Below are positions 13,503-60,772 of a DNA stretch of 64,000 nt, piece by piece. The first letter of the stretch is position 1. Every line of letters starts with the position of its first letter. Source of the DNA: a virus. The notes under the pieces were generated by a model, which saw only the letters and a program-made list of their open reading frames with translations, had not been told where the DNA came from and searched no databases. The stretch covers positions 1 through 64,000 of IMG/VR virus record IMGVR_UViG_3300044691_000338; one strand, given 5' to 3'. A program made the translations under genes and the position numbers.

Positions 13503-14065
13503 ACGTCACCTTCGATTTTACGAAAGCACAATATGAGGACGATCCGCTCCGATTCCCCATCGTTGCGGACGGAGTGCGGGATCAGGTTGTCATGGTGCCA
13601 CCCCTCGCCGGGCTTCCAGACCATGCTCTCGTCTTCAACTGTGTTCACGCACCGGTCGTTGCCGCGGAGGACCACCCAAACCTTGGTCGAATAATATCGA
13701 GCATGCCAGGCCACGTCGTCATCGTGCTCGTACACGCGGCACCCCGGCGGTATCCGGGTCATGAGCACGCCGCCGAACTCCAGCGGCACGTCCAGCGCGT
13801 CCATCACGGTCATCAGCACGTCAGGCAGTGACGGCAGTTGCCGATAGGCGGGCCACCACACGGACTTGTGCGGCTTCTGGGAGAACTCCGGTTCGAGCAT
13901 GGCCTCGGGTGAGGCGTACCGAATCCAGAGGTCGGAAGTTTCTCGATGCGGTGAATTACCGAGGCGCCGCTCTGGTCGATCGTTCCATAGGCTCGGCTGC
14001 GCATCGAGTTCGGCCAGCAACGGCGCGACGTCGATGTCCTTGGCGATCAATTTGAAGTGGCTCAC
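13499..14065 (-). CDS. Asp/Asn beta-hydroxylase-like (2OG-Fe(II)) protein, 188 aa
   Basis: The double-stranded beta-helix signature of the aspartyl/asparaginyl hydroxylase family is visible: an acidic His motif YEHDDDVAWHARYYS near residues 110-124, then GWHHDNLIPHSVRND near 155-169, followed by an Arg. The proposed Fe ligands are the His/Asp of the first motif and the His of HSVRN. Substrate unknown. It overlaps the cupin gene by ATGA and the gp10-C gene upstream, so all three are made together. A virion or host-surface protein is a plausible target (inference). Confidence 0.65.
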   Translation of the reverse strand: MSHFKLIAKDIDVAPLLAELDAQPSLWNDRPERRLGNSPHRETSDLWIRYASPEAMLEPEFSQKPHKSVWWPAYRQLPSLPDVLMTVMDALDVPLEFGGVLMTRIPPGCRVYEHDDDVAWHARYYSTKVWVVLRGNDRCVNTVEDESMVWKPGEGWHHDNLIPHSVRNDGESERIVLILCFRKIEGDV

Positions 14066-15795
14066 GAGACGTCAACCTCCGCGTCGATCAGAGCGATTTT
14101 GAACGGATCTGTGCTGCTCAACTCGAATATACGATCCGAGCCGCTGAACCGCGATGTCGCTCCAAGCCGGTTCGCCTTGATGGTGAACGCGGTCTCTCCA
14201 GACCGCCCGACCGGCAGCATGCGATAGTTCGACCAAACATGCCCGCCATCGTCCGACCAGCGCAGCATCACCTGCGGGTTCGTCCCCTGCGGCACGCCGG
14301 CGCCGGTTTGCATCTTGATCGCGAGATAGCTGTAGCGATCGGCCGCGACCGTGGTGGCGGGCAGCGCGCGCCAACGCCTGATCCATTTCCGCGGCGTCCC
14401 ATTGTCCAGATATGTGGCCGGATTGAACCCGTAGAGGTTCCCGCTGCGATAATCACCGAGCACGCCTTGCCCCGGCCCGCGCGTGCTCCCGCTGGTGACT
14501 GACCCGGAGGTCCCCGGGGGATCGGTCGCGCCATGGACCAGAGAGCCGCCGCTCTCCGCGAAGGGACCGCCGCGGCCGTTGTTGAGCGCGAAACTGGCTG
14601 GCGCACCGGTATTGGTCAGGAACACCACGGGAGAGACGCCAAACGGGAGTTCGCCATTGACCCCGAGGTTTTGCGCGCCTCCCGTGGCCGAGATGAATTT
14701 CCGGCGATTGGCGGCCTGGGTCAGATCGACAAAGGCCCCGGTGTTCGAGAACCACAACTCGGCCATGGTGGCGGAAACGACAGGGCCAACCGGGATCCAA
14801 TAGACCGCGTGACCCGTGAACTGAGAATTCCCGACGGGTCTGGTGCCATCAGACGAAATCGCCTGTACGCTGGGAATTGTATCGCCGGAGAGCGGAGGCA
14901 AGTCCTCGAATCCCGTCGCCAGTGTCCAATGCCATGCCTGCCCTGCGCCGACTGATGATCCACGGCCGACCAGATGAAGCCCATCAGCCGATATACCATC
15001 GGCACTGCTGATCGTTTGGGAAAACGGGTTAGCCAATAACGCGGTCGTGCCGCTTGAGTTTACAAAAATTCTACCAGACCCACTAATCTCCATACCCCCG
15101 GCTATGACGGTGCCCGCGCTAGAAACCGAAAATGCCTGGCCCGTTGTTGCGCCGCCGGTAAATGGGATAGCGACCGCGGGACCGGCGGATGTCCACATGA
15201 CAGGGGTATCCACTCCAAGTCCGCTGCTCACCCCGACGATCACATTGCCATCGGCGGACACCGCCAGAGCAGTGCCGCTCTCATCTCCCGACAGAATACC
15301 GAGCTGCACCATTCCGCCACCCGAAGTCCAAACAAACGGAAATTCAAAAACCGGCCCAGGCGGCCCACCGATAAGGTATCCTGGCATGTTGCTGGACGTG
15401 CCGACGATCGTCGTGCCATCCGCCGATATCGCGTTGGCCTGTGAAGCCTGCCCGGTCCCGAGAAAGCCCAGGCCAACCATGCCGCCGCCCGAGGTCCAGC
15501 GGAACGCTTCGCTGGTGGCGAGCCCAGCTCCATCCGGCAGTGATCCGCCGCCGTCACTTCTGCCGACAACGATGGTGCCGTCATCGGAAACCCCGGCTGC
15601 TTGCGATGTTGTGCCGGATGCCAGGAGACCGAGCGATGTGAATGTCGCACCAGTCCAACGAAACGCGATCGGGGAACCGCTGCCATCGAAATCCGCTGAC
15701 CCGACGATGACCGTTCCATCAGCCGAGGCGGCGAACGCCACGCTGAATAGACCGCTGGGGGGAACCCCCATATCGACCGCGACCCAGACCGTCAT
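14062..15795 (-). CDS. HAF-repeat protein carrying the C-terminal part of P22 gp10-like stabilisation protein, 577 aa
   Basis: The ATG at 15795 was chosen because it overlaps the upstream TGA as ATGA; a TTG 21 bases upstream is the alternative. Residues about 10-290 hold seven repeats of the form (V/I)SADGT-x-IVG, the HAF/beta-propeller type. The last 130 residues contain LGDYRSGNLYGFNPATYLDNG, cut here to GDYRSGNLYGF, and MLRWSDDGGHVWSNYR, then RIFELSSTDPFKIALIDA. These match the C-terminus of P22 gp10-type packaged-DNA stabilisation (tail hub) proteins. The N-terminal gp10 half is in the gene just upstream. Confidence 0.65.
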   Translation of the reverse strand: MTVWVAVDMGVPPSGLFSVAFAASADGTVIVGSADFDGSGSPIAFRWTGATFTSLGLLASGTTSQAAGVSDDGTIVVGRSDGGGSLPDGAGLATSEAFRWTSGGGMVGLGFLGTGQASQANAISADGTTIVGTSSNMPGYLIGGPPGPVFEFPFVWTSGGGMVQLGILSGDESGTALAVSADGNVIVGVSSGLGVDTPVMWTSAGPAVAIPFTGGATTGQAFSVSSAGTVIAGGMEISGSGRIFVNSSGTTALLANPFSQTISSADGISADGLHLVGRGSSVGAGQAWHWTLATGFEDLPPLSGDTIPSVQAISSDGTRPVGNSQFTGHAVYWIPVGPVVSATMAELWFSNTGAFVDLTQAANRRKFISATGGAQNLGVNGELPFGVSPVVFLTNTGAPASFALNNGRGGPFAESGGSLVHGATDPPGTSGSVTSGSTRGPGQGVLGDYRSGNLYGFNPATYLDNGTPRKWIRRWRALPATTVAADRYSYLAIKMQTGAGVPQGTNPQVMLRWSDDGGHVWSNYRMLPVGRSGETAFTIKANRLGATSRFSGSDRIFELSSTDPFKIALIDAEVDVS

Positions 15796-18368
15796 GGGAC
15801 AGTGCTCACATGCCAAGGTTGGGTGAAGGACGGCGCGATCGGGTTGGTCGAACTCCAGGAGATAGCCGTCGGCGTCAGCAAGGTTTCCACCAAAGACCCA
15901 GCGACGATCGTATTGGCGTAAACCTGCAATTGCTGCGTCGTCGTGTCGATCGAGATCAGCAGGTTCACCCAGGCCGCCCAGTTGGTGAAAGCATAACCCG
16001 CGCCAACGATGGGCGCGTTGCTCATATCGAACGCGGCAATGGAGAGTTGCGGCGTGCCGAGGGTATCGTTCTCAATCTTGATGAGCAGACCAGGATTGGT
16101 TGACCCCAACGTGTCATCGGTCTGGTTCGAGAAATAGATGCCAGAACCGTCGGCGTCCGGAAGATCGACCCAGATGGACAGCAGCGCCGTCGAGACAGCG
16201 GAAGGCAAGCCCGTGAGCCCGGTCCCGGTTTGCAGCACCTCTGGTGAGGTGATCGTCACCGATTTCGGGTCATACGCGGAGAACGTGGTCGACGGCTGGG
16301 CCGAGAGTTTGAACGGGGTAAAGAAATTGCCCCAGTGCCGTTTGATCTGCCCGTTATCGAGCGCGCCAAGCCGCGTCCAGATGGGGAAACCGGCCAGTTT
16401 TGAGGACGTCTTGTCGTACTGCCACGTCTTGTCCGCCTCTGGGAAGGTGATCACGTAATAGACGTGCTGGCCTTCCTGCCGCGCGTAGGCGATCGCATCG
16501 CCGAGATTGGGATACTTCTGAAATTCCGCCACCAGCGCCTGGGTGGAAATCGGCACCGCGGAATACCCGCTCGCCTTCACAACGATCCCTTCCCCTTGGT
16601 CGTTGCGGGACAGCCAGATCAGTTCCTCTTCAGCGAGCGCCACGGAAAACGGCGCGATGCAACCGGATTCGATGTGGTTGCTGGAAAGAGGACCGAAGGG
16701 AAAATTCGGAAGCCCCTGATCATTCCAGATTTCCGTGTTTTTTTCCTTGATGATGTAGACCTCATCATGGATCACACCGAGGGTGACGCAGTTGTCCGGC
16801 GATTGGTTGGCCACCCCGAAATTGAGCGGTTGCCAGGTCGAGAGGTCCTCCTGGTCCGAGGACGCGATATTCTGCGAGTTCAGGAAGACGAGGACGCCGA
16901 ATCCGTCAACGACACCGCCCATGACGGGATTCGGAAACGGCATGTCGATCGGCACCAGACCGACGAAAGCGCCATATGTCGGCGAGGTCAGCGTGAAGCC
17001 CGCTCCGGATCCCGTGGTCGATTTCTGGGTGAACGAGATCGCCGGGTCGGAAATTGCCCCCGGAGAGGTGATCGTGAACCCGGTCACACTCCCTGTCGGG
17101 CCAACCCGGTTCACCAGATAGGTCGCATTGACGCCGCCACCTGTGATGAAACCGGCCACGCCAACGACATAGCCATGGCCACCGGTATGCACCGCGAAGC
17201 CCGAGATAGGTCCGGCGGCGGCGATATCGACGGTGAACCCGGTCCCGACATTGGTGGCGATTCCTGGCGCCGCTTTCGTCGTCGCCGCGGCGGTGATCGC
17301 GTAGGCCGTGCCGCGGTTGAGCAGAATGAATCCGGTGACGACTCCACCCCCAACGGAGGTCACCCGATAGACGGCATCCTGACTGCCGACCGTGATCAGG
17401 CCGGTGTCATTGGCCGCGTAATTGGTGCCGCCGGAAGTAATTGAAGCGGCGGTGATTTCTCCCGCGACCGCCGTGATGTTGATCGTCAGGCCGCTTCCGC
17501 CGCCGGGATGCGGCTGAATGTTCGTCGTCGCGACGTTGCTCGCCGTCGAATACCCAGTGCCCGCGTTGGGCAGGATGAAGTCAGTCACCGGGTTGTTCGC
17601 GACAGCGGTGACCGTCGCCACCGGAAAGGCGCTCTGAAAGCCAGAGGACGCCTTCAGGAGAATGGTGTCGTTGACCGCGTACAGGCCGCCAGCGGGATTT
17701 ACGGTACCGATCACCGGCCCGACCACGCCACCAGTGAGAGGCAATCCGCCCGGCACCAGCCATGCCCCCACGCCATCGACGATCAGCAGTTGCTTCTTGT
17801 TCTGGAACATCGAAACCGGCGTTGTCTCGTCACCGATCGTCCCGCAGAGGGTATGAATGCCGTTCGCGGTGATGCTGATTACCTCGGGGCCGGATACGAC
17901 GTAGAGAACGTCGTTCAGTGGCAGACCGCCGCGGCCAGGACCAAGAAAATCATATGTCGGCGATGTCAGGATAAACCCGGTCCCGGTCCCTGTCGTCGAG
18001 AATTGGGTGAAACCAGAAGGTATGCCGGACGAGTCGCCTGGATCGATGATATCGAACCCGGTCACAGCCGAACCGGTCAGCGTGGTCACTCTGACCCGAG
18101 GGGCACCGAAGTTCCCGCCCTCAATCGGGATCAGCACAATTACATCACCGAAAGCATATCCGGTCCCGCCTGATCCGACCGCGCCTCCGATCAGCCCGAC
18201 ACGGCCAACCTGATCAAGCAAATCGAGGCCGGACGCGCCGAACAGAAAGCCGGGAACGATGCCGTCGCGGGTCTCGATCACCTCAACGCAGAGGTTGAGC
18301 GCGTCTGAATCTCCAGCGTCGCTTGAATTTTGTGTGGCAAATCCACCTAAAATTGGCGACTTCGCCAT
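15792..18368 (-). CDS. P22 gp10-like packaged-DNA stabilisation protein, N-terminal part with inserted beta repeats, 858 aa
   Basis: The gp10-like backbone is seen at residues 1-55, 155-207 and 471-700 (DLSTWQPLNFGVANQSPDN, EVYIIKEKNTEIW, then FPFGPLSSNHIESGC). Two blocks interrupt it, at about 56-154 and 208-470. They are made of Gly/Thr-rich repeats with the core NDTGLITV-x(4)-AVYRVTSV-x-GG-x-VTGF. Residues 700-858 look like a LamG/concanavalin fold. The usual gp10 C-terminus is missing and is encoded by the next gene (ATGA coupling). Likely role: plugs the portal and connects head to tail. Confidence 0.75.
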   Translation of the reverse strand: MAKSPILGGFATQNSSDAGDSDALNLCVEVIETRDGIVPGFLFGASGLDLLDQVGRVGLIGGAVGSGGTGYAFGDVIVLIPIEGGNFGAPRVRVTTLTGSAVTGFDIIDPGDSSGIPSGFTQFSTTGTGTGFILTSPTYDFLGPGRGGLPLNDVLYVVSGPEVISITANGIHTLCGTIGDETTPVSMFQNKKQLLIVDGVGAWLVPGGLPLTGGVVGPVIGTVNPAGGLYAVNDTILLKASSGFQSAFPVATVTAVANNPVTDFILPNAGTGYSTASNVATTNIQPHPGGGSGLTINITAVAGEITAASITSGGTNYAANDTGLITVGSQDAVYRVTSVGGGVVTGFILLNRGTAYAITAAATTKAAPGIATNVGTGFTVDIAAAGPISGFAVHTGGHGYVVGVAGFITGGGVNATYLVNRVGPTGSVTGFTITSPGAISDPAISFTQKSTTGSGAGFTLTSPTYGAFVGLVPIDMPFPNPVMGGVVDGFGVLVFLNSQNIASSDQEDLSTWQPLNFGVANQSPDNCVTLGVIHDEVYIIKEKNTEIWNDQGLPNFPFGPLSSNHIESGCIAPFSVALAEEELIWLSRNDQGEGIVVKASGYSAVPISTQALVAEFQKYPNLGDAIAYARQEGQHVYYVITFPEADKTWQYDKTSSKLAGFPIWTRLGALDNGQIKRHWGNFFTPFKLSAQPSTTFSAYDPKSVTITSPEVLQTGTGLTGLPSAVSTALLSIWVDLPDADGSGIYFSNQTDDTLGSTNPGLLIKIENDTLGTPQLSIAAFDMSNAPIVGAGYAFTNWAAWVNLLISIDTTTQQLQVYANTIVAGSLVETLLTPTAISWSSTNPIAPSFTQPWHVSTVP

Positions 18369-19327
18369 TAAGCCACCTCTCTACGCCGCACAGGTGGACG
18401 CCTGTTGTTTGCTTGCTGTTTGGCGTCAGCCCAGATGCAATTCTTCGGCGAGTACCCCAGATCGTTGTTCATTCTTTCCAAGGACAATCCTTGTCGAGGA
18501 CGTATTCCCATGTCCTCGATAAAGTTACGATAGCTGGTCCAGCGAGGACAGACCGTGATCCCGCGACCGGCGTATCCTGGGAACAAAGCCTTATTCTTCG
18601 GATCACACCTCCGGATCATCCCCTTCCACACATGGTACTCGAGTGGCTTCAGATTGAGTTTCCATAGAGGGAGCGTCGTTTGCCCGGCGAACAGCGCGGT
18701 CTTTTTACAGCCACATGACTTAGTCAACCCCTCCCGCAAGGCCGTGCCCGAAACTACCCGTTCCACCCCACAATCACATTGGCATTTCCAAAAAGGTCCG
18801 CCTTTTTTGGGCGCCGAACGATCCAGCGAAATCGCGAACCAATATCCAAACCTACGACCACTTAGGTCGATACGTGTTCGGGTTCCTGTATTTTCGTACT
18901 GTCGACAACCGCAATTAGTCGATAAGCCCCTGACCAATGAACTGCAAACAACAGGCGTTTCAGTTCCGCAATCACAGCGGCATAGCCATCTCGCCTTCTG
19001 ATGTGCGCTCACTGTCGAACGGCCCATGACAAGCCACATACCGAACCGTTTTCCGATAAGGTTAGCCCGTTTTTCTCTAAGTGTTTCGTGGACCCTACAA
19101 CCACATGATTTCGATTTTCCGCTCATAAGAGAGGTCGTGAGGACCACTCGTTCAGCACCGCAGTCGCACCGACACAGGAACCTTCCTGTCGGCCGATACT
19201 CAATGACAGTCCATTTATCGAACTTTTCCCCCGTGTGATCGATCCAAGAAGGATGCATGTGATTCCACCCCATAAAAGAGGGGAAATTCTTAACTGAATC
19301 TATCGAAAAGTCAAGGGTTTCCGCCAT
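18368..19327 (-). CDS. Homing-endonuclease-like protein: three zinc-finger repeats plus HNH-type C-terminus, 319 aa
   Basis: Three copies of a Cys4 repeat (CRCDCGAERVV to SCGC; CRCDCGTETPVV to NCGC; CQCDCGVERVV to SCGC) are followed by a C-terminal module: VWKGMIRRCDPKN, YAGRGITVCPRW, then LERMNNDLGYSPKNCIWA. That module is the common phage HNH-like free-standing endonuclease. The finger repeats probably read DNA. By eye the gene is clearly more AT-rich than its neighbours. It sits between the gp4-like and gp10-like genes, its TAA overlapping the next ATG. It looks like a selfish insertion. Confidence 0.7.
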   Translation of the reverse strand: MAETLDFSIDSVKNFPSFMGWNHMHPSWIDHTGEKFDKWTVIEYRPTGRFLCRCDCGAERVVLTTSLMSGKSKSCGCRVHETLREKRANLIGKRFGMWLVMGRSTVSAHQKARWLCRCDCGTETPVVCSSLVRGLSTNCGCRQYENTGTRTRIDLSGRRFGYWFAISLDRSAPKKGGPFWKCQCDCGVERVVSGTALREGLTKSCGCKKTALFAGQTTLPLWKLNLKPLEYHVWKGMIRRCDPKNKALFPGYAGRGITVCPRWTSYRNFIEDMGIRPRQGLSLERMNNDLGYSPKNCIWADAKQQANNRRPPVRRREVA

Positions 19328-54697: not shown

Positions 54698-55176
54698 GGG
54701 GAGTCCTCCGTCGCGACCTGGCGCAAGGCGCGCATCCGATCGCGGATCTCGGTGACCGTCGGCTGAAGCACGTCGCAGACATCAGCCGCCGATGGGAAAA
54801 ACTGGAACGTCTGCAACGCGGATCGCTGCGTTGACTGGTTAAACGCGCCAATCGGGAAACCCTGCAGCGCGAGCATCACACCCGCCATCCAGCCCTTGAG
54901 CGCCTCCGGGGTCTTCTCGTTGCGGACCACCTGCGGGATCGGCGCCAGCCACTCCCGGAGGACTTTCTCCGTCACCGGACGCTCGTACGGCTCAAACCGC
55001 GCGATCGCCTCCCGCGCCGAGGCCCGGATCTCCGGTGAGTACGGGCCCAGGTGCATGCCGTCCGACATTGGACTCAACATCACGAACAACACCGCATTGA
55101 GCGAATGCTTCGGGTTTAGGGAAGGAAGATCGCCTGGGAGGTTGGAAGACTTCGTTTTGGCGACATCACGGCTCAC
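54694..55176 (-). CDS. Helical protein downstream of the replication initiator, 160 aa
   Basis: GTG start at 55176 within the end of the initiator gene (frame overlap of 11 bases), GGGG upstream. Contains SPEIRASAREAIARFEPYER, APIPQVVRNEKTPEALKGWM and a second helical part. Its place right after initiator and helicase suggests a helicase loader or replication accessory, by analogy with phage gene order only. Confidence 0.5.
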   Translation of the reverse strand: MSRDVAKTKSSNLPGDLPSLNPKHSLNAVLFVMLSPMSDGMHLGPYSPEIRASAREAIARFEPYERPVTEKVLREWLAPIPQVVRNEKTPEALKGWMAGVMLALQGFPIGAFNQSTQRSALQTFQFFPSAADVCDVLQPTVTEIRDRMRALRQVATEDSP

Positions 55177-56419
55177 GGTTAAATTCCCCCTCAATGGTCG
55201 ATGTCCAGTCTCCTGCCGGTTCATCCAGATGCTCGCGACCGGGCAGACGGCGACCGAGGATCAGTTCGGATGCTTGCAAGCGGCTGTCGGCTGGTCGACC
55301 GTTCAGTTTTTGAGGCTTGTTGATGTATCGGCCCTCAAGAACTTTGATCATATTTGCCGGCTTTACTGCCCAATCAAAATCTGCTGTCCAACCGCGTTCA
55401 CTGTTTCCGGACAAGAACGCGCTTGCGGTGATTGTCTCGCAATACGCCAGCCAATCCGCCAGATCGTTGTGCATATCCTCGTGGAGGCGAGCCCTGACCG
55501 CAGCTCGGCGAGGGGTGGTGATTTTTTTCACGACGCCAGATGTTCCCCCACAAACCCGGTTCCAGATTGCGACAGCTTCATCGACCAAATCGCGCTCCGG
55601 CGTACCTGAGGGTTCTATGAGGGTTCCTTGAAGGTTCTGCTTTGATGGTTCCTGATGGTTCCCTGTCCCGTTTTCGGGACTGTTAGGTGGGAATTTCGGG
55701 ACTGTTTCTAGGGAATTTTGGGACTGTTCGGTGGGAAAATCGGGACTATTAGGTGGGAAAATCGGGACCGTTTCCACAAACCCAGGATCGGGAAAAACGG
55801 GACCGTTAACCGGGAATTTCGGGACTGTTTCTTCTCTCTTTGCTTTGTTGTCAGCGAGGACCTGTTTGACTCGAATAGAGACCTGCTTGGGCGTTCCCTG
55901 GTTGCGACAGAGTGGGTCATGCTGAAATTCGACAAAGAGCCGCCGTTCCTCGGCTAACGCTTCTTGCACCGTGTCGAAACAACGCAGGACCTCTCTCACC
56001 AGAACGCGATTTGAGGCTGACATCTGGTAGACCCATTGCCCGCTTCCCCGATAAGTGTCCGCTTGGGGATCGCCATCCCAGGAGCGTTTCCCGAGATAAT
56101 ATTCTCCGGTGATTGGGTCGGATGTCTTATACGTGTAATGCACAATGAGCCCAGAGGGACCAAGCAGTTTATAAACGACGACCTGCCCAGTCGCACCTTT
56201 ACGTAACCCGGTGTCAGCAATCAGACCTTCCTCGGTTAACCTTTGCATAGCGGCAATAATCGTTTTCCGATCTAATGATGTGTCCCCAACCAATTTCGTC
56301 TGACTGGGATAGCAGATGCCAGATTCATCCGCATAATTCGCGAGACATACCAACACGAACTTATCGCTCGATCGTGTGATCGATTGGCAGAATGCCCATG
56401 TTAGCGCGGCATTACTCAC
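55166..56419 (-). CDS. Replication initiator: winged helix, inserted GIY-YIG domain, iteron-encoding linker, 417 aa
   Basis: Residues 20-70 (FVLVCLANYADESGICYPSQ then LDRKTIIAAMQRLTEEGLI) are the HTH_36 winged helix of phage initiators. Residues 94-170 read HYTYKTSDPITGEYYLGKRS, YRGSGQWV, and a Glu-containing helix, a GIY-YIG nuclease domain inserted in frame. Residues 197-250 are repeats of TVPKFPPNSP encoded by the iterons. Residues 270-400 contain AVAIWNRVCGG and a Trp-rich part typical of the C-terminus of this class. Located four bases after dnaB. Confidence 0.75.
   Translation of the reverse strand: MSNAALTWAFCQSITRSSDKFVLVCLANYADESGICYPSQTKLVGDTSLDRKTIIAAMQRLTEEGLIADTGLRKGATGQVVVYKLLGPSGLIVHYTYKTSDPITGEYYLGKRSWDGDPQADTYRGSGQWVYQMSASNRVLVREVLRCFDTVQEALAEERRLFVEFQHDPLCRNQGTPKQVSIRVKQVLADNKAKREETVPKFPVNGPVFPDPGFVETVPIFPPNSPDFPTEQSQNSLETVPKFPPNSPENGTGNHQEPSKQNLQGTLIEPSGTPERDLVDEAVAIWNRVCGGTSGVVKKITTPRRAAVRARLHEDMHNDLADWLAYCETITASAFLSGNSERGWTADFDWAVKPANMIKVLEGRYINKPQKLNGRPADSRLQASELILGRRLPGREHLDEPAGDWTSTIEGEFNREP
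55671..55830. repeat. Seven iteron-like repeats inside the initiator gene: candidate replication origin
   Basis: Seven copies of (T)TTCGGGACTGTT, mostly followed by nGGTGGGAA, at about 22-base spacing between 55671 and 55830. Copies differ at a few positions (GACTATT, GACCGTT). Copy 5 has an extra stretch. The runs of A and T between copies make the block locally AT-rich. Lambda and relatives carry their origin as iterons inside gene O, and this initiator and its dnaB neighbour fit that plan. Confidence 0.7.
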
Positions 56420-56423
56420 GGGT

Positions 56424-57878
56424 TCACACCCATGCGGGAACTTCCTCGTCAGAAGCGAACAGACTGGTAGTCGTGCTGTCGCCGGGCATCGAAAACCGGG
56501 TGCGCGGGCCGTCGAACGTGAGCCAGACCGATCCGGTTTTGCCGTATCGGCGCTTGCCCAGGATGACCTCGGATTTGCCCTTCACCTGGTCGCGGCGCTT
56601 GTACCAAGCCTCTCGGTATGCGACCTGTTTTTCCTCACTATAGTTCGCTGGCGGGGTTGGAGGTTGCGCCGGAAAGTAAAGTTCCGGCCGCCACACCATG
56701 ACGATGTTATCCGCGTCCTGTTCGCCGGCGTGCGCCAGATCGGCGATGCGCGGGCGTTGCGCGTCTGGTCCCTCGCGCCGCTCGCCCTGCCGGGATGTTT
56801 GCACGAGCAACAGGATCGGAATGCCGAGCGATTTCGCCAGGGCTTTCAACGTGAACGTGATGGCCTGAGCCTGTTCCGTGCGGGACAAACGGGCCATCGA
56901 TTTGTCGGGTTTAATCAGGTCGCGATGATCGATGACGATCAGTTTCGCACCCTTCCGGCGGACCGCGATCCTGGCGCCGATGCACAATTCGGTCAGGCTC
57001 ATGCCGGTCCGGTCATCAACGGACAGGGGAAGTGCCCGCAACTCTTTTCGAACCTGGATCAGCGCCAAAGTGCGCGCGTCGGTGAGTTTGCCTTGCCGAA
57101 TATCGTCGGACGGAATCGAGGTGGCACTGGCCAGCATCCGCACCGCGAGATCCTTGCGGGTCATTTCCAACGAGACGATGTGCACCGATTGGCCCGCGGG
57201 AAGCGCACGCGCGATGGCCTCGGCGATCTGCATGCCGAGGGCTGTTTTGCCGTGTCCAGATCGGCCGGCGATCATGTCCAGTGCGCCAGGCCAGAGCCCG
57301 CCCCAAAGGTCATCCAGAGTTCCGATACCAGTCATGAGCCCGTCGACCTGGCCGGTCCGGTAGGCCCTGTCCGCGTCGTCCGTGGCGGTGTCGACTGACT
57401 CGGCCCAACCCGTGGCGGGTTCAACTGAGGCGACCTCCGACACGTCCATCAGTGACGCGACGAGGTCCGAGATTAGCGTGACGCCATCCGAACCTGGATC
57501 CGGCGTAAAACCGGAGGCGATCGCCTGCTCTCCAATGCCGATGACCTGACGGCGCACCCAGGATTCCCGGATGACCTCGGCGTATTCCGCGACCGTGGTG
57601 ATGGCGATCATGGAAGCAAGCAGGTTGGCGATCACCGCATCCGGAAACTCGCCCTTCAGCGAGACACCGGAAACAGTTTTACCGGCGTCGATCCGCTCGA
57701 TGATGCGGGCATAAACTCTGCCCAATTCGGCATCGTAAAAGTGTTCAGGCAACAAACCGACGCAGCGATCCCGCGCATTGTTGCTGTACAGCAACGCGCC
57801 AAGGATCGCCTGTTCCGCTTCAATGTTTGAAGGTTGTGCGCGGAGTGACAGGCCGGGATAGGGAGCATCATCCGGCAT
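56424..57878 (-). CDS. DnaB-family replicative helicase, 484 aa
   Basis: The N-terminal DnaB domain (NIEAEQAILGALLYSNN) is followed by the RecA-like core. Walker A is AGRSGHGKTALG near residue 204-215, Walker B LIVIDHRDLIKPD near 322, and LLVQTSRQGERREG then DLAHAGEQDADNIVMVWRPE match motifs H3-H4 with its Arg finger region. Unwinds DNA at the fork. Immediately upstream of the initiator gene, as in P22-type replication modules with their own helicase. ATG at 57878. Confidence 0.9.
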   Translation of the reverse strand: MPDDAPYPGLSLRAQPSNIEAEQAILGALLYSNNARDRCVGLLPEHFYDAELGRVYARIIERIDAGKTVSGVSLKGEFPDAVIANLLASMIAITTVAEYAEVIRESWVRRQVIGIGEQAIASGFTPDPGSDGVTLISDLVASLMDVSEVASVEPATGWAESVDTATDDADRAYRTGQVDGLMTGIGTLDDLWGGLWPGALDMIAGRSGHGKTALGMQIAEAIARALPAGQSVHIVSLEMTRKDLAVRMLASATSIPSDDIRQGKLTDARTLALIQVRKELRALPLSVDDRTGMSLTELCIGARIAVRRKGAKLIVIDHRDLIKPDKSMARLSRTEQAQAITFTLKALAKSLGIPILLLVQTSRQGERREGPDAQRPRIADLAHAGEQDADNIVMVWRPELYFPAQPPTPPANYSEEKQVAYREAWYKRRDQVKGKSEVILGKRRYGKTGSVWLTFDGPRTRFSMPGDSTTTSLFASDEEVPAWV

Positions 57879-58260: not shown

Positions 58261-59523
58261 TCATCCCTCGACACAGATCAGGCCGTGCGTCGGCCGGGTG
58301 GCGGAGACGTACAGACCTCGGAGTCCCTCGCCGCGGTTGCTGCCCACCCAACGGCGCATCTCCGGGATGTCGACGAAGGTATTACGCATTGTAAGGCCCT
58401 GACTGTTGTGTACGGTGAGCGTATAGGGGGCCTGCGCGGTCACCAGTGACTGCTTGAAGGCATGGAATCGGCCCCACTCGCCATTGCGGCGCGCGGTATC
58501 CGCCATGGCCGTCAGCTTCGCCTGATAGGCCCTCTCATCGGCCGGCATGTGGACCTCGACGGCCTTCTTGTCCTCGGTTTCGACCACCATGCGCCACGTT
58601 GGGAGGCCGGCACGGTTGTCTTTGCCGATCTCCCGGACAATCACTTCCTCGTTCGTGTTGAGGATGATCTTGCGCCGCTCGACCAGCGTTTCGCGGATCA
58701 GCGCGCGCTCCCCGACCACGAATGGCGTGTTGGTCGGGCCGTAGCGCCACTGGCGGATCCGGATGTTCGTCGTCGCCACCGTCTTGTTCGTCCAGCACAG
58801 ATATCGAAAAGCCAGGCTGTCGGCGTTGAACTCTTCACTGGTGAACGCTTTCTTGAGCCATACACCTGGCTCGCGCGGCACGAACACGCCATAGGCGCCG
58901 CTGTGCGCCGGCTTGCACCAATCCCAGTTCGGCCCGTCGGTCTGGCACTTTCGGACCTCCCAGGCGGCGGCGAGCACAGGGTTGTCCTCGGCCTGCCGTT
59001 CTGGTTTGGACAGGTGGCTATGGTGTTCGGTATCGAATGTCGGGCTGCGGCCTTCCCCGACCGGAAATAGTTGGCCCTCGTCGCCGAAGAAAATGACCGC
59101 CCGCCCGTCCAGCCATCGCTCAATGTGCTGATAAAGATCGGTTCCGACCATGCTCGTCTCGTCGATGAACACGATGTCGGCATTGACCGACTCGGCTTTC
59201 GGATTGCGCGTGAAGATCAGTTTATCGCCGCGTGGCTTCGGCGTCAGCCCGAGCAGCGTCTGCAGCGTGCAGACACCGACATCAACACCGCCGGCGCGGA
59301 GCTTCTTACGGGCGACGCCACATGCCTGATGCGTCGGCGCGCTGATCGCCACCGGCTTCCATCCCTCGTGAAGGGTGGCGGCGATCACCTGCATTAGAAC
59401 CGTCTTGCCGCTGCCGGCATCGCCCGTGACAAGATGATGCCGCCGGGCTTTGATCGACTCCATCACCTCGGTGTACGCGCGCTCCTGGTCGGGATTGAGG
59501 GTGTAGCCGAGGGTGTTCCTCAC
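58261..59523 (-). CDS. SF1 (RecD/Dda-like) DNA helicase, 420 aa
   Basis: Motif I GDAGSGKT at residues 34-41, motif II DETS at 121-124 in VFIDETSMVG, motif III FFGDEGQLFPVGEG near 146, motif V TVHNSQGLTMRNTFVD near 372 and motif VI LYVSATRPTHG near the end. The size and motif order fit Dda/RecD2-type 5'-3' helicases. Probably helps replication start or recombination. ATG at 59523, just after the 75-aa gene. Confidence 0.85.
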   Translation of the reverse strand: MRNTLGYTLNPDQERAYTEVMESIKARRHHLVTGDAGSGKTVLMQVIAATLHEGWKPVAISAPTHQACGVARKKLRAGGVDVGVCTLQTLLGLTPKPRGDKLIFTRNPKAESVNADIVFIDETSMVGTDLYQHIERWLDGRAVIFFGDEGQLFPVGEGRSPTFDTEHHSHLSKPERQAEDNPVLAAAWEVRKCQTDGPNWDWCKPAHSGAYGVFVPREPGVWLKKAFTSEEFNADSLAFRYLCWTNKTVATTNIRIRQWRYGPTNTPFVVGERALIRETLVERRKIILNTNEEVIVREIGKDNRAGLPTWRMVVETEDKKAVEVHMPADERAYQAKLTAMADTARRNGEWGRFHAFKQSLVTAQAPYTLTVHNSQGLTMRNTFVDIPEMRRWVGSNRGEGLRGLYVSATRPTHGLICVEG

Positions 59524-59779: not shown

Positions 59780-60772
59780 TCAAAGCCCGCGCGCCTTTGC
59801 TGGCGGCAGGCGGGTAACACCGCGGGCGGCGATGAACGCCTCGACGGACTCAAACCGCTCGGAGGGCAACGGGGGCAGCGTGTTGCGTATCTCAGGAATA
59901 GGACGTGCATATTTTGCGTGGGTTTTGGCGGGGCGGCCGCTACGCTTCCCATTGACGTTCCCGTGCCCGAGAAACCGCACCCGGACGTGCGCAAGCTTCG
60001 GATTCCAGCAGATGCCGCACGTCGAACAGTGATCCGTCTTACCGATCTCCTGCGGGCAGATGAGCGATTTTGTCGCAGGATCAAAGGCATATCGCTCTGG
60101 CTTCTTCCAGGTCGTAGCGACCTGCATGGGGGCGTATGGCGTGTCCTCGGCCACGGAGAAACGAACCTGCCACCGGCCCGGCCGGCGGACGTTCATCGCC
60201 ATGATCTCTTTGCCGATCGCACTATCGGACGGCCGCGCCGTGTATCCCCAGACGTGCAACTCCGGGAGCGCATCCGACCACTCTACCCATTGGCGAAGGT
60301 AGGCCAAATCGGGAAAGTCGCCGAGAATGTGCAGTCGGACTGAGAAGCCCTTGGGGTGCCGGATCGACAGCCATTCCAATTCGCCGTCCAGGCTCATCAT
60401 CAGCGCGGGATTATAGCGGAACCGGACGGCCATCGGCATGCCGTTACCAAAACACTCGGCCCAGCACGCACATGATCGCGGGCAGGTCGCGCGCTCTTCC
60501 AGCGATAGATTGTAGTGCCGCATGCCTGCCCACGGGCCCACCATGATCTGGTTGCCGGTCTTGGCATTGTTGATGCCCTCGATGAGGACCTGATTGCGCT
60601 CAGAGGCATCGAAGACGCGGCTTGGGAACATCGTGCGTGCCTCGACCACTGGCGGCGCGGACGGCGCCAGTGCCGCCCATGTTCGCGGCGTTGGTTCTGT
60701 CACCACGGGGTTTTTGAACCGGGCTTGGCCGCCAACGGAGTAAGCGCGTTTGTTGCCGGTCAGGAGTCTCAT
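59780..60772 (-). CDS. Gp88-like protein with Cys clusters, 330 aa
   Basis: A Cys-rich first site ATCPRSCACWAECFGNG near residues 93-109 and a second ICPQEIGKTDHCSTCGICWN near 248-267 flank segments LHILGDFPDLAYLRQWVEW and PELHVWGYTARPSD. This is the Gp88 family of phage proteins, whose Cys arrangement recalls Fe-S or radical enzymes. The activity is not established to my knowledge. ATG at 60772 overlaps the GcrA-like gene. Confidence 0.75.
   Translation of the reverse strand: MRLLTGNKRAYSVGGQARFKNPVVTEPTPRTWAALAPSAPPVVEARTMFPSRVFDASERNQVLIEGINNAKTGNQIMVGPWAGMRHYNLSLEERATCPRSCACWAECFGNGMPMAVRFRYNPALMMSLDGELEWLSIRHPKGFSVRLHILGDFPDLAYLRQWVEWSDALPELHVWGYTARPSDSAIGKEIMAMNVRRPGRWQVRFSVAEDTPYAPMQVATTWKKPERYAFDPATKSLICPQEIGKTDHCSTCGICWNPKLAHVRVRFLGHGNVNGKRSGRPAKTHAKYARPIPEIRNTLPPLPSERFESVEAFIAARGVTRLPPAKARGL

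Follow-up and report, generated by a model that had tools for sequence, protein, structure and literature searches.

A predicted I-TevI-like GIY-YIG nuclease domain in a phage replication initiator whose gene contains the iterons of a probable lambda-type origin

The window analyzed here is the whole 64,000-nt stretch of the IMG/VR virus record IMGVR_UViG_3300044691_000338 (positions 1 to 64,000). It carries a replication initiator gene preceded on the same strand by a DnaB-family helicase gene, with a gap of 4 bp between the two. The features of this locus are listed below.

56424-57878, minus strand: DnaB-family replicative helicase gene (Pfam DnaB_C, E 2.6e-56)
55166-56419, minus strand: gene for the replication initiator (417 aa, GTG start; Pfam HTH_36, E 9e-10)
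56162-56419, minus strand: winged-helix DNA-binding domain, residues 1-86 (HTH_36 match at 18-67)
55892-56146, minus strand: predicted GIY-YIG (I-TevI-like) nuclease module, residues 92-176 (PHROG 314; alignment with I-TevI)
55672-55829, plus strand: iteron array of seven 22-bp-type units, starting at 55675, 55697, 55719, 55741, 55763, 55798, and 55820
55664-55684, no strand: terminal inverted pair TGTCCCGTTTTCGGGACTGTT, formed by the last iteron unit
55611-55661, plus strand: second repeat block of five GGTTC (GAACC on the coding strand), 10-14 bp apart
55289-55576, minus strand: C-terminal domain, residues 282-377 (PHROG 10469, DnaD-like helicase loader, E 6.6e-22; PHROG 19658)

The Pfam matches agree with the preliminary description of this DNA, which had placed a winged-helix initiator gene next to dnaB. 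The initiator protein also matched PHROG 6643, 345, and 1032 (replication initiation, O-like), and the AlphaFold pLDDT of its winged-helix domain was about 90 or more. No match to Phage_rep_O (PF04492) was found in the window initiator, the DNA-binding domain being HTH_36 instead. By sequence, residues 282-377 appear to resemble the C-termini of helicase loaders and primosomal proteins. Upstream of dnaB and in the same orientation lies an ORF for a Dda/RecD-like helicase (58261-59523; PHROG 325, E 6.7e-86), and a GP88-family protein (PF17338, E 3.9e-9) is encoded at 59780-60772, near the replication genes.

The iteron array occupies the linker of the initiator, between the DNA-binding domain and the C-terminal domain. 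Seven copies of CGGGACTGTT at ≤1 mismatch were found in the array block and 4 matches elsewhere in the 64 kb; the expectation for the whole window was 4.2, and no shuffle gave 11. Tandem Repeats Finder reported the array as the top one of the window (period 22, 4.6 copies, score 118). The seven copies of a 22-base unit described earlier are confirmed. An 11-bp sub-period of the unit was rejected because the lag-11 autocorrelation equaled the synonymous expectation. A 22-bp unit is not a whole number of codons, so its copies occur in all three codon phases (0, 2, 1, 0, 2, 0, and 2 for the seven copies), and the half-unit AACAGTCCC reads as ETVP, NSP, or EQSQ, depending on the phase. The peptide repeats of the TVPKFPPNSP type noted in the preliminary description are present, but only as a consequence of 3 × 22 bp amounting to 22 codons. 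Synonymous recoding with the protein kept fixed gave a mean of 0.74 copies and a maximum of 6 in 20,000 trials, compared with the 7 observed, and shuffling of the block's own synonymous codons never reached 7 copies. The repetition of the array therefore lies at the level of DNA.

Viral contigs and GTDB bacterial genomes were searched at the DNA level only, using the 21-bp inverted pair TGTCCCGTTTTYGGKACYGTT as the pattern. Matches were found in about 100 viral contig stretches and 15 GTDB bacterial genomes, against estimated chance matches of about 0.2 and 0.9, respectively, with viral contigs taken as ~20 kb each and the four bases as equally frequent; a tandem-unit DNA pattern matched 9 viral contigs. 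Nearly all pair sites (112/116) lay, in constant orientation, inside an open frame encoding a homologue of the window's winged helix; among the four exceptions, L062, L070, and L083 resemble pieces of initiator genes, and the fourth is L072. The sites represented 57 distinct clusters, with the pair in phase 1 in 41, phase 2 in 12, and phase 0 in 4. Across 62 genes, the 177 iteron units were divided 66/59/52 among the codon phases, a spacing of 22 was the commonest, followed by 17, and the seven units of the window were the most found in any gene. A whole-protein pattern scan of the viral contigs yielded no relatives, the patterns being too specific.

To avoid circularity, nine further relatives were chosen by protein match only (Bcep176, EBPR podovirus 1, Vibrio H20, phiV10, AB1, GF-2, Ab105-2, PPompW, and a Pantoea plasmid). 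Repeats of the CCC-A-tract-GGG type directly followed the winged helix in all nine, and the length of the repeat unit varied among them (24 bp in phiV10 and Vibrio H20). Since these relatives and lambda share the same plan, an in-gene origin appears to be general for the HTH_36 O-like family and of a known kind. The preliminary description had named repeats kept only as protein in related phages as evidence against an origin; the relatives instead conserve them as DNA in all three frames, which supports its proposal that one DNA stretch may serve both as coding sequence and as probable origin. A proline/serine-rich, variable linker is what would be expected of a flexible tether, but the reading of the repeats as a protein-level low-complexity linker with DNA similarity as a by-product is hardly credible and is refuted by the three codon phases of the copies, the failure of synonymous recoding to give seven, and the even distribution of the relatives' units over the phases. 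The 21-bp pair could be used as a family-wide DNA signature for phage origins.

The GGTTC block adjoins the iterons as the AT-rich region of lambda does, but is not itself AT-rich. In 55 genes, GAAC occurred 2.44 times per 72 nt, compared with 1.35 expected under synonymous recoding. The GAACC repeats of these genes mostly stand 9-12 bp apart. The codon-phase bias was greater in the GAACC repeats than in the iterons, so that part of the GAACC repetition may be protein-driven. In the same 55 genes, the mean GC content was about 49% over the arrays and 57% for the genes, and no distinct AT-rich block was seen. It is possible that the GGTTC block is a melting or loading region. In L116, L119, L023, L059, L093, and others, a short hairpin with a CTAAAG/CTAACG-type loop stands right after GAACC; unlike in these relatives, none is obvious in the window.

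Judged from these sequence comparisons, the array block is very probably the replication origin of the phage, with lambda-type iterons inside the initiator gene. The winged helix of the initiator would bind the 22-bp iterons within its own gene, and the C-terminal domain would recruit the neighboring DnaB helicase. We consider it very unlikely that the array binds the initiator for autoregulation or copy control while the true origin lies elsewhere. Such a role would fit with the inconspicuousness of any AT-rich flanking element and with the GC skew over the window, which shows no clear switch at the iteron block; iterons of plasmids, moreover, often have control roles too. Against it, none of the relatives examined has the array outside the initiator gene, and the same holds for lambda, where the in-gene iteron array is the origin (PMC7466680).

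The likeness to lambda O and ori-lambda, and to the origins of Stx phages, consists of iterons located mid-gene between the DNA-binding and C-terminal parts, of a replication signal overlapping the coding sequence, and of a unit built as a dyad with a central A-tract (CCC-A-tract-GGG in the window; lambda iteron 1 is ATCCCTCAAAACGAGGGA; PMC7466680). The window differs from lambda in its DNA-binding domain (HTH_36 rather than Phage_rep_O), in having seven units at mostly 22-bp spacing, in its GGTTC repeats without an obvious AT-rich element, in its neighboring gene (DnaB itself rather than a P-type loader), and in the nuclease domain inserted into the initiator. The earlier statement that the gene plan matches that of lambda O accordingly holds for the in-gene iteron layout, but not for the GIY-YIG domain between the DNA-binding domain and the iterons. 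Likewise, the differences that it saw in initiator family, repeat, and helicase stand for HTH_36 and DnaB, but the gap is smaller than was thought, as the PHROG matches are O-like and the unit dyads are similar. Closer counterparts are HTH_36 O-like initiators such as those of phiV10, Acinetobacter AB1, and Burkholderia Bcep176, which share the type of winged helix, the place of the in-gene repeats, and, in several of these phages, an adjacent P or DnaB gene; they differ in lacking the GIY-YIG module and in their unit and spacing. An in-gene iteron origin is therefore ordinary in kind, being already known from lambda. The unusual part is the initiator with a built-in homing-type nuclease: in the open-access literature searched, no account of a phage initiator with a GIY-YIG domain came up, and the closest known case is Odn.

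The module is placed between the winged helix and the iterons of the window initiator, where PHROG 314 (homing endonuclease) matched residues 93-173. Six initiators, namely that of the window and five found via the iterons, align at the module; all six matched PHROG 314, three gave weak matches to Pfam SegE_GIY-YIG, and two to GIY-YIG. An AlphaFold model built on 46 relatives showed pLDDT values of about 90-98 across most of residues 92-170 (the single-sequence model, with a pLDDT of 35, was not usable). Residues 92-176 of the model aligned with the catalytic domain of I-TevI (1ln0) with a Z score of 8.3 and an rmsd of 2.9 over 81 residues, and with 1mk0 with a Z score of 8.1. In BFVD, the model matched phage initiators and Seg-like homing endonucleases. 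Plain Foldseek against the PDB returned almost only winged helices in its top rows, the I-TevI match coming from the second aligner, and a PDB search by sequence gave chance matches only.

The hallmarks of GIY-YIG nucleases are the GIY and YIG motifs together with an Arg and a Glu (PMC1564403). In all 28 module relatives, the two motif tyrosines, the Arg after YIG (a candidate equivalent of I-TevI Arg27), an Asp, a further Tyr, and a final Asn were invariant, and the glutamate was kept in 27. The insert is thus almost certainly an I-TevI-like GIY-YIG nuclease domain, with cleavage as its predicted activity. It shares its nuclease fold and motif residues with homing endonucleases of the I-TevI/Seg/F-LimXI type and differs from them in lacking a NUMOD-type tail: HTH_36 was the only domain above the cut-off in the window protein, with no NUMOD or similar dedicated DNA-binding domain, and the winged helix would supply the binding. 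In locus L131, the module (L131:3001-3240) has Q in place of the catalytic E; it is the only such case among initiator-embedded modules and is possibly decaying.

A scan with the module alignment retrieved 33 loci. It added the HTH_36 initiators of L125, L126, L127, L130, L131, L135, and L137 to the six already known, bringing the module-bearing HTH_36 initiators to 13 including the window; L178 and L179 are further ones. The module was also found in three lambda-O-type initiators, two with a Phage_rep_O Pfam match (L132 and L138) and one a close relative (L136), where it lies between the DNA-binding domain and palindromic GTACAGAATCTGTAC-type repeats, most clearly in L138. A match of L138 to O proteins of Stx phages extending across the module was discarded as a chance extension, the O protein examined having no module. 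The remaining loci were mostly stand-alone proteins, several of homing-endonuclease type, and the closest annotated phage relatives of the module are homing endonucleases such as F-LimXI. In the sample selected by iteron DNA, the module occurred in 5 of the 56 other initiator clusters. In the bacterial order to which one carrier genome belongs, 2 of 298 genomes contained the module, in one case within an initiator, and 2 of 100 contained the winged helix.

Locus L181 (2231-3802) encodes a stand-alone 201-aa protein consisting of a winged helix and a GIY-YIG domain with nothing after them; its gene is directly followed by an initiator of a different family (PHROG 11233), in an Odn-like arrangement. 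Two iteron-derived patterns matched no array in its 94-kb record. As a candidate origin-directed nuclease, L181 is suggestive only.

The distribution and history of the module were compared with those of the DNA-binding domain, using winged-helix and module trees that rest on about 90 columns. On the winged-helix tree, module presence needs 8 changes, 4 of them forced by strongly supported branches. Among the 13 module-bearing initiators, module identity and winged-helix identity were uncorrelated (rho -0.06): L116 and L047 are 44% identical in the winged helix and 58% in the module, and L116 and L042 are 76% and 48% identical, respectively. The winged helices nearest to those of L047 and L116, belonging to L119 (83%) and L025 (80%), respectively, have no module; in alignments of the genes of both pairs, the insert begins after the winged helix and ends before the first iteron. 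These comparisons indicate that the module is sporadic and has not shared the history of the DNA-binding domain; swapping of winged-helix domains could equally produce discordant trees. In the module tree, a single clade of HTH_36 modules was not rejected (AU p 0.22), so that the module may have entered once or several times. The distance from the end of the winged-helix code to the first iteron half-site had a median of 50 bp in insert-free genes and 340 bp (289-386) in module-bearing ones.

Taking the observed repeats with their DNA conservation, the identity and placement of the domain, its patchiness, and the discordant histories together, we favor, as a rather probable overall explanation, an in-gene origin combined with a mobile nuclease module in the initiator. 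That this module moves between phage initiators as a homing nuclease, cutting insert-free junctions and being copied by repair, has in our judgment nearly an even chance. The winged helix, seated on the iterons, would hold the GIY-YIG nuclease near the origin; the nuclease would cut the junction of winged helix and iterons in related phages without the insert, and repair with the carrier as template would transfer the module along with its origin type. I-TevI cuts efficiently only at a proper spacing from its bound site (PMC8263062), and by analogy we propose that spacing targets the nuclease to the junction and protects the carrier, which could be safe because the insert shifts the first iteron from ~50 to ~340 bp. 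Against homing, a nuclease would endanger the origin that it sits on if the cut site were kept and its activity left uncontrolled, and L131 has Q for what is, from its alignment, the catalytic E. In its widest form the proposal is more tentative, namely that a mobile GIY-YIG domain free of a targeting domain borrows the origin-binding domain of the initiator, cuts insert-free origins, spreads by conversion, has inserted at one and the same position in two or more initiator families, and yields stand-alone origin-directed nucleases.

The module might instead serve, without homing, to attack the origins of phages or satellites that compete with the carrier. Odn of ICP1 does so by means of a RepA_N-like domain (PMC8263062), and the stand-alone L181 protein beside its different initiator, with no array matched by the two patterns, points the same way. 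In the window, however, the domain belongs to a complete initiator that would keep it on the iterons of the carrier as well, and we regard this explanation as unlikely. We consider it improbable that the GIY-YIG domain nicks its own origin, for example in a switch from theta to rolling-circle replication. The retained catalytic residues and the tie to the initiator, beside the iterons in two initiator families, would suit such a function, but the module is patchy (in 5 of 56 other iteron-selected clusters) and absent from close relatives, so that the replication mode does not depend on it. Equally improbable is that the module has been domesticated into an inactive spacer or an additional surface for DNA binding: L131 is without the catalytic glutamate and the linker position tolerates insertions, but the motif residues show no other change across 28 sequences that have diverged elsewhere.

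Like the window initiator under the homing proposal, Odn combines an initiator-type DNA-binding domain with a nuclease of the GIY-YIG superfamily; its DNA-binding part targets iterons, a demonstration that nucleases can be directed by a domain of the initiator type (PMC8263062). Odn differs in being a stand-alone weapon composed of RepA_N-like and T5orf172 domains, a pair absent from the window protein, which is a full-length initiator with HTH_36, a SegE/I-TevI-like GIY-YIG domain, and its own in-gene iterons; in architecture, Odn is closer to L181. If the module cuts as proposed, a mobile element would be using origin recognition as its targeting device; this would link replicon incompatibility, homing, and phage-phage warfare and suggest how weapons like Odn could originate.

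No tRNA or Rfam matches were found in the window. Elsewhere in it, a pair of neighboring ORFs (15792-18368 and 14062-15816) corresponds to consecutive portions of PHROG 578 (head closure), giving the impression of a split gene; directly beside them lies an ORF for an HNH endonuclease (18368-19327).
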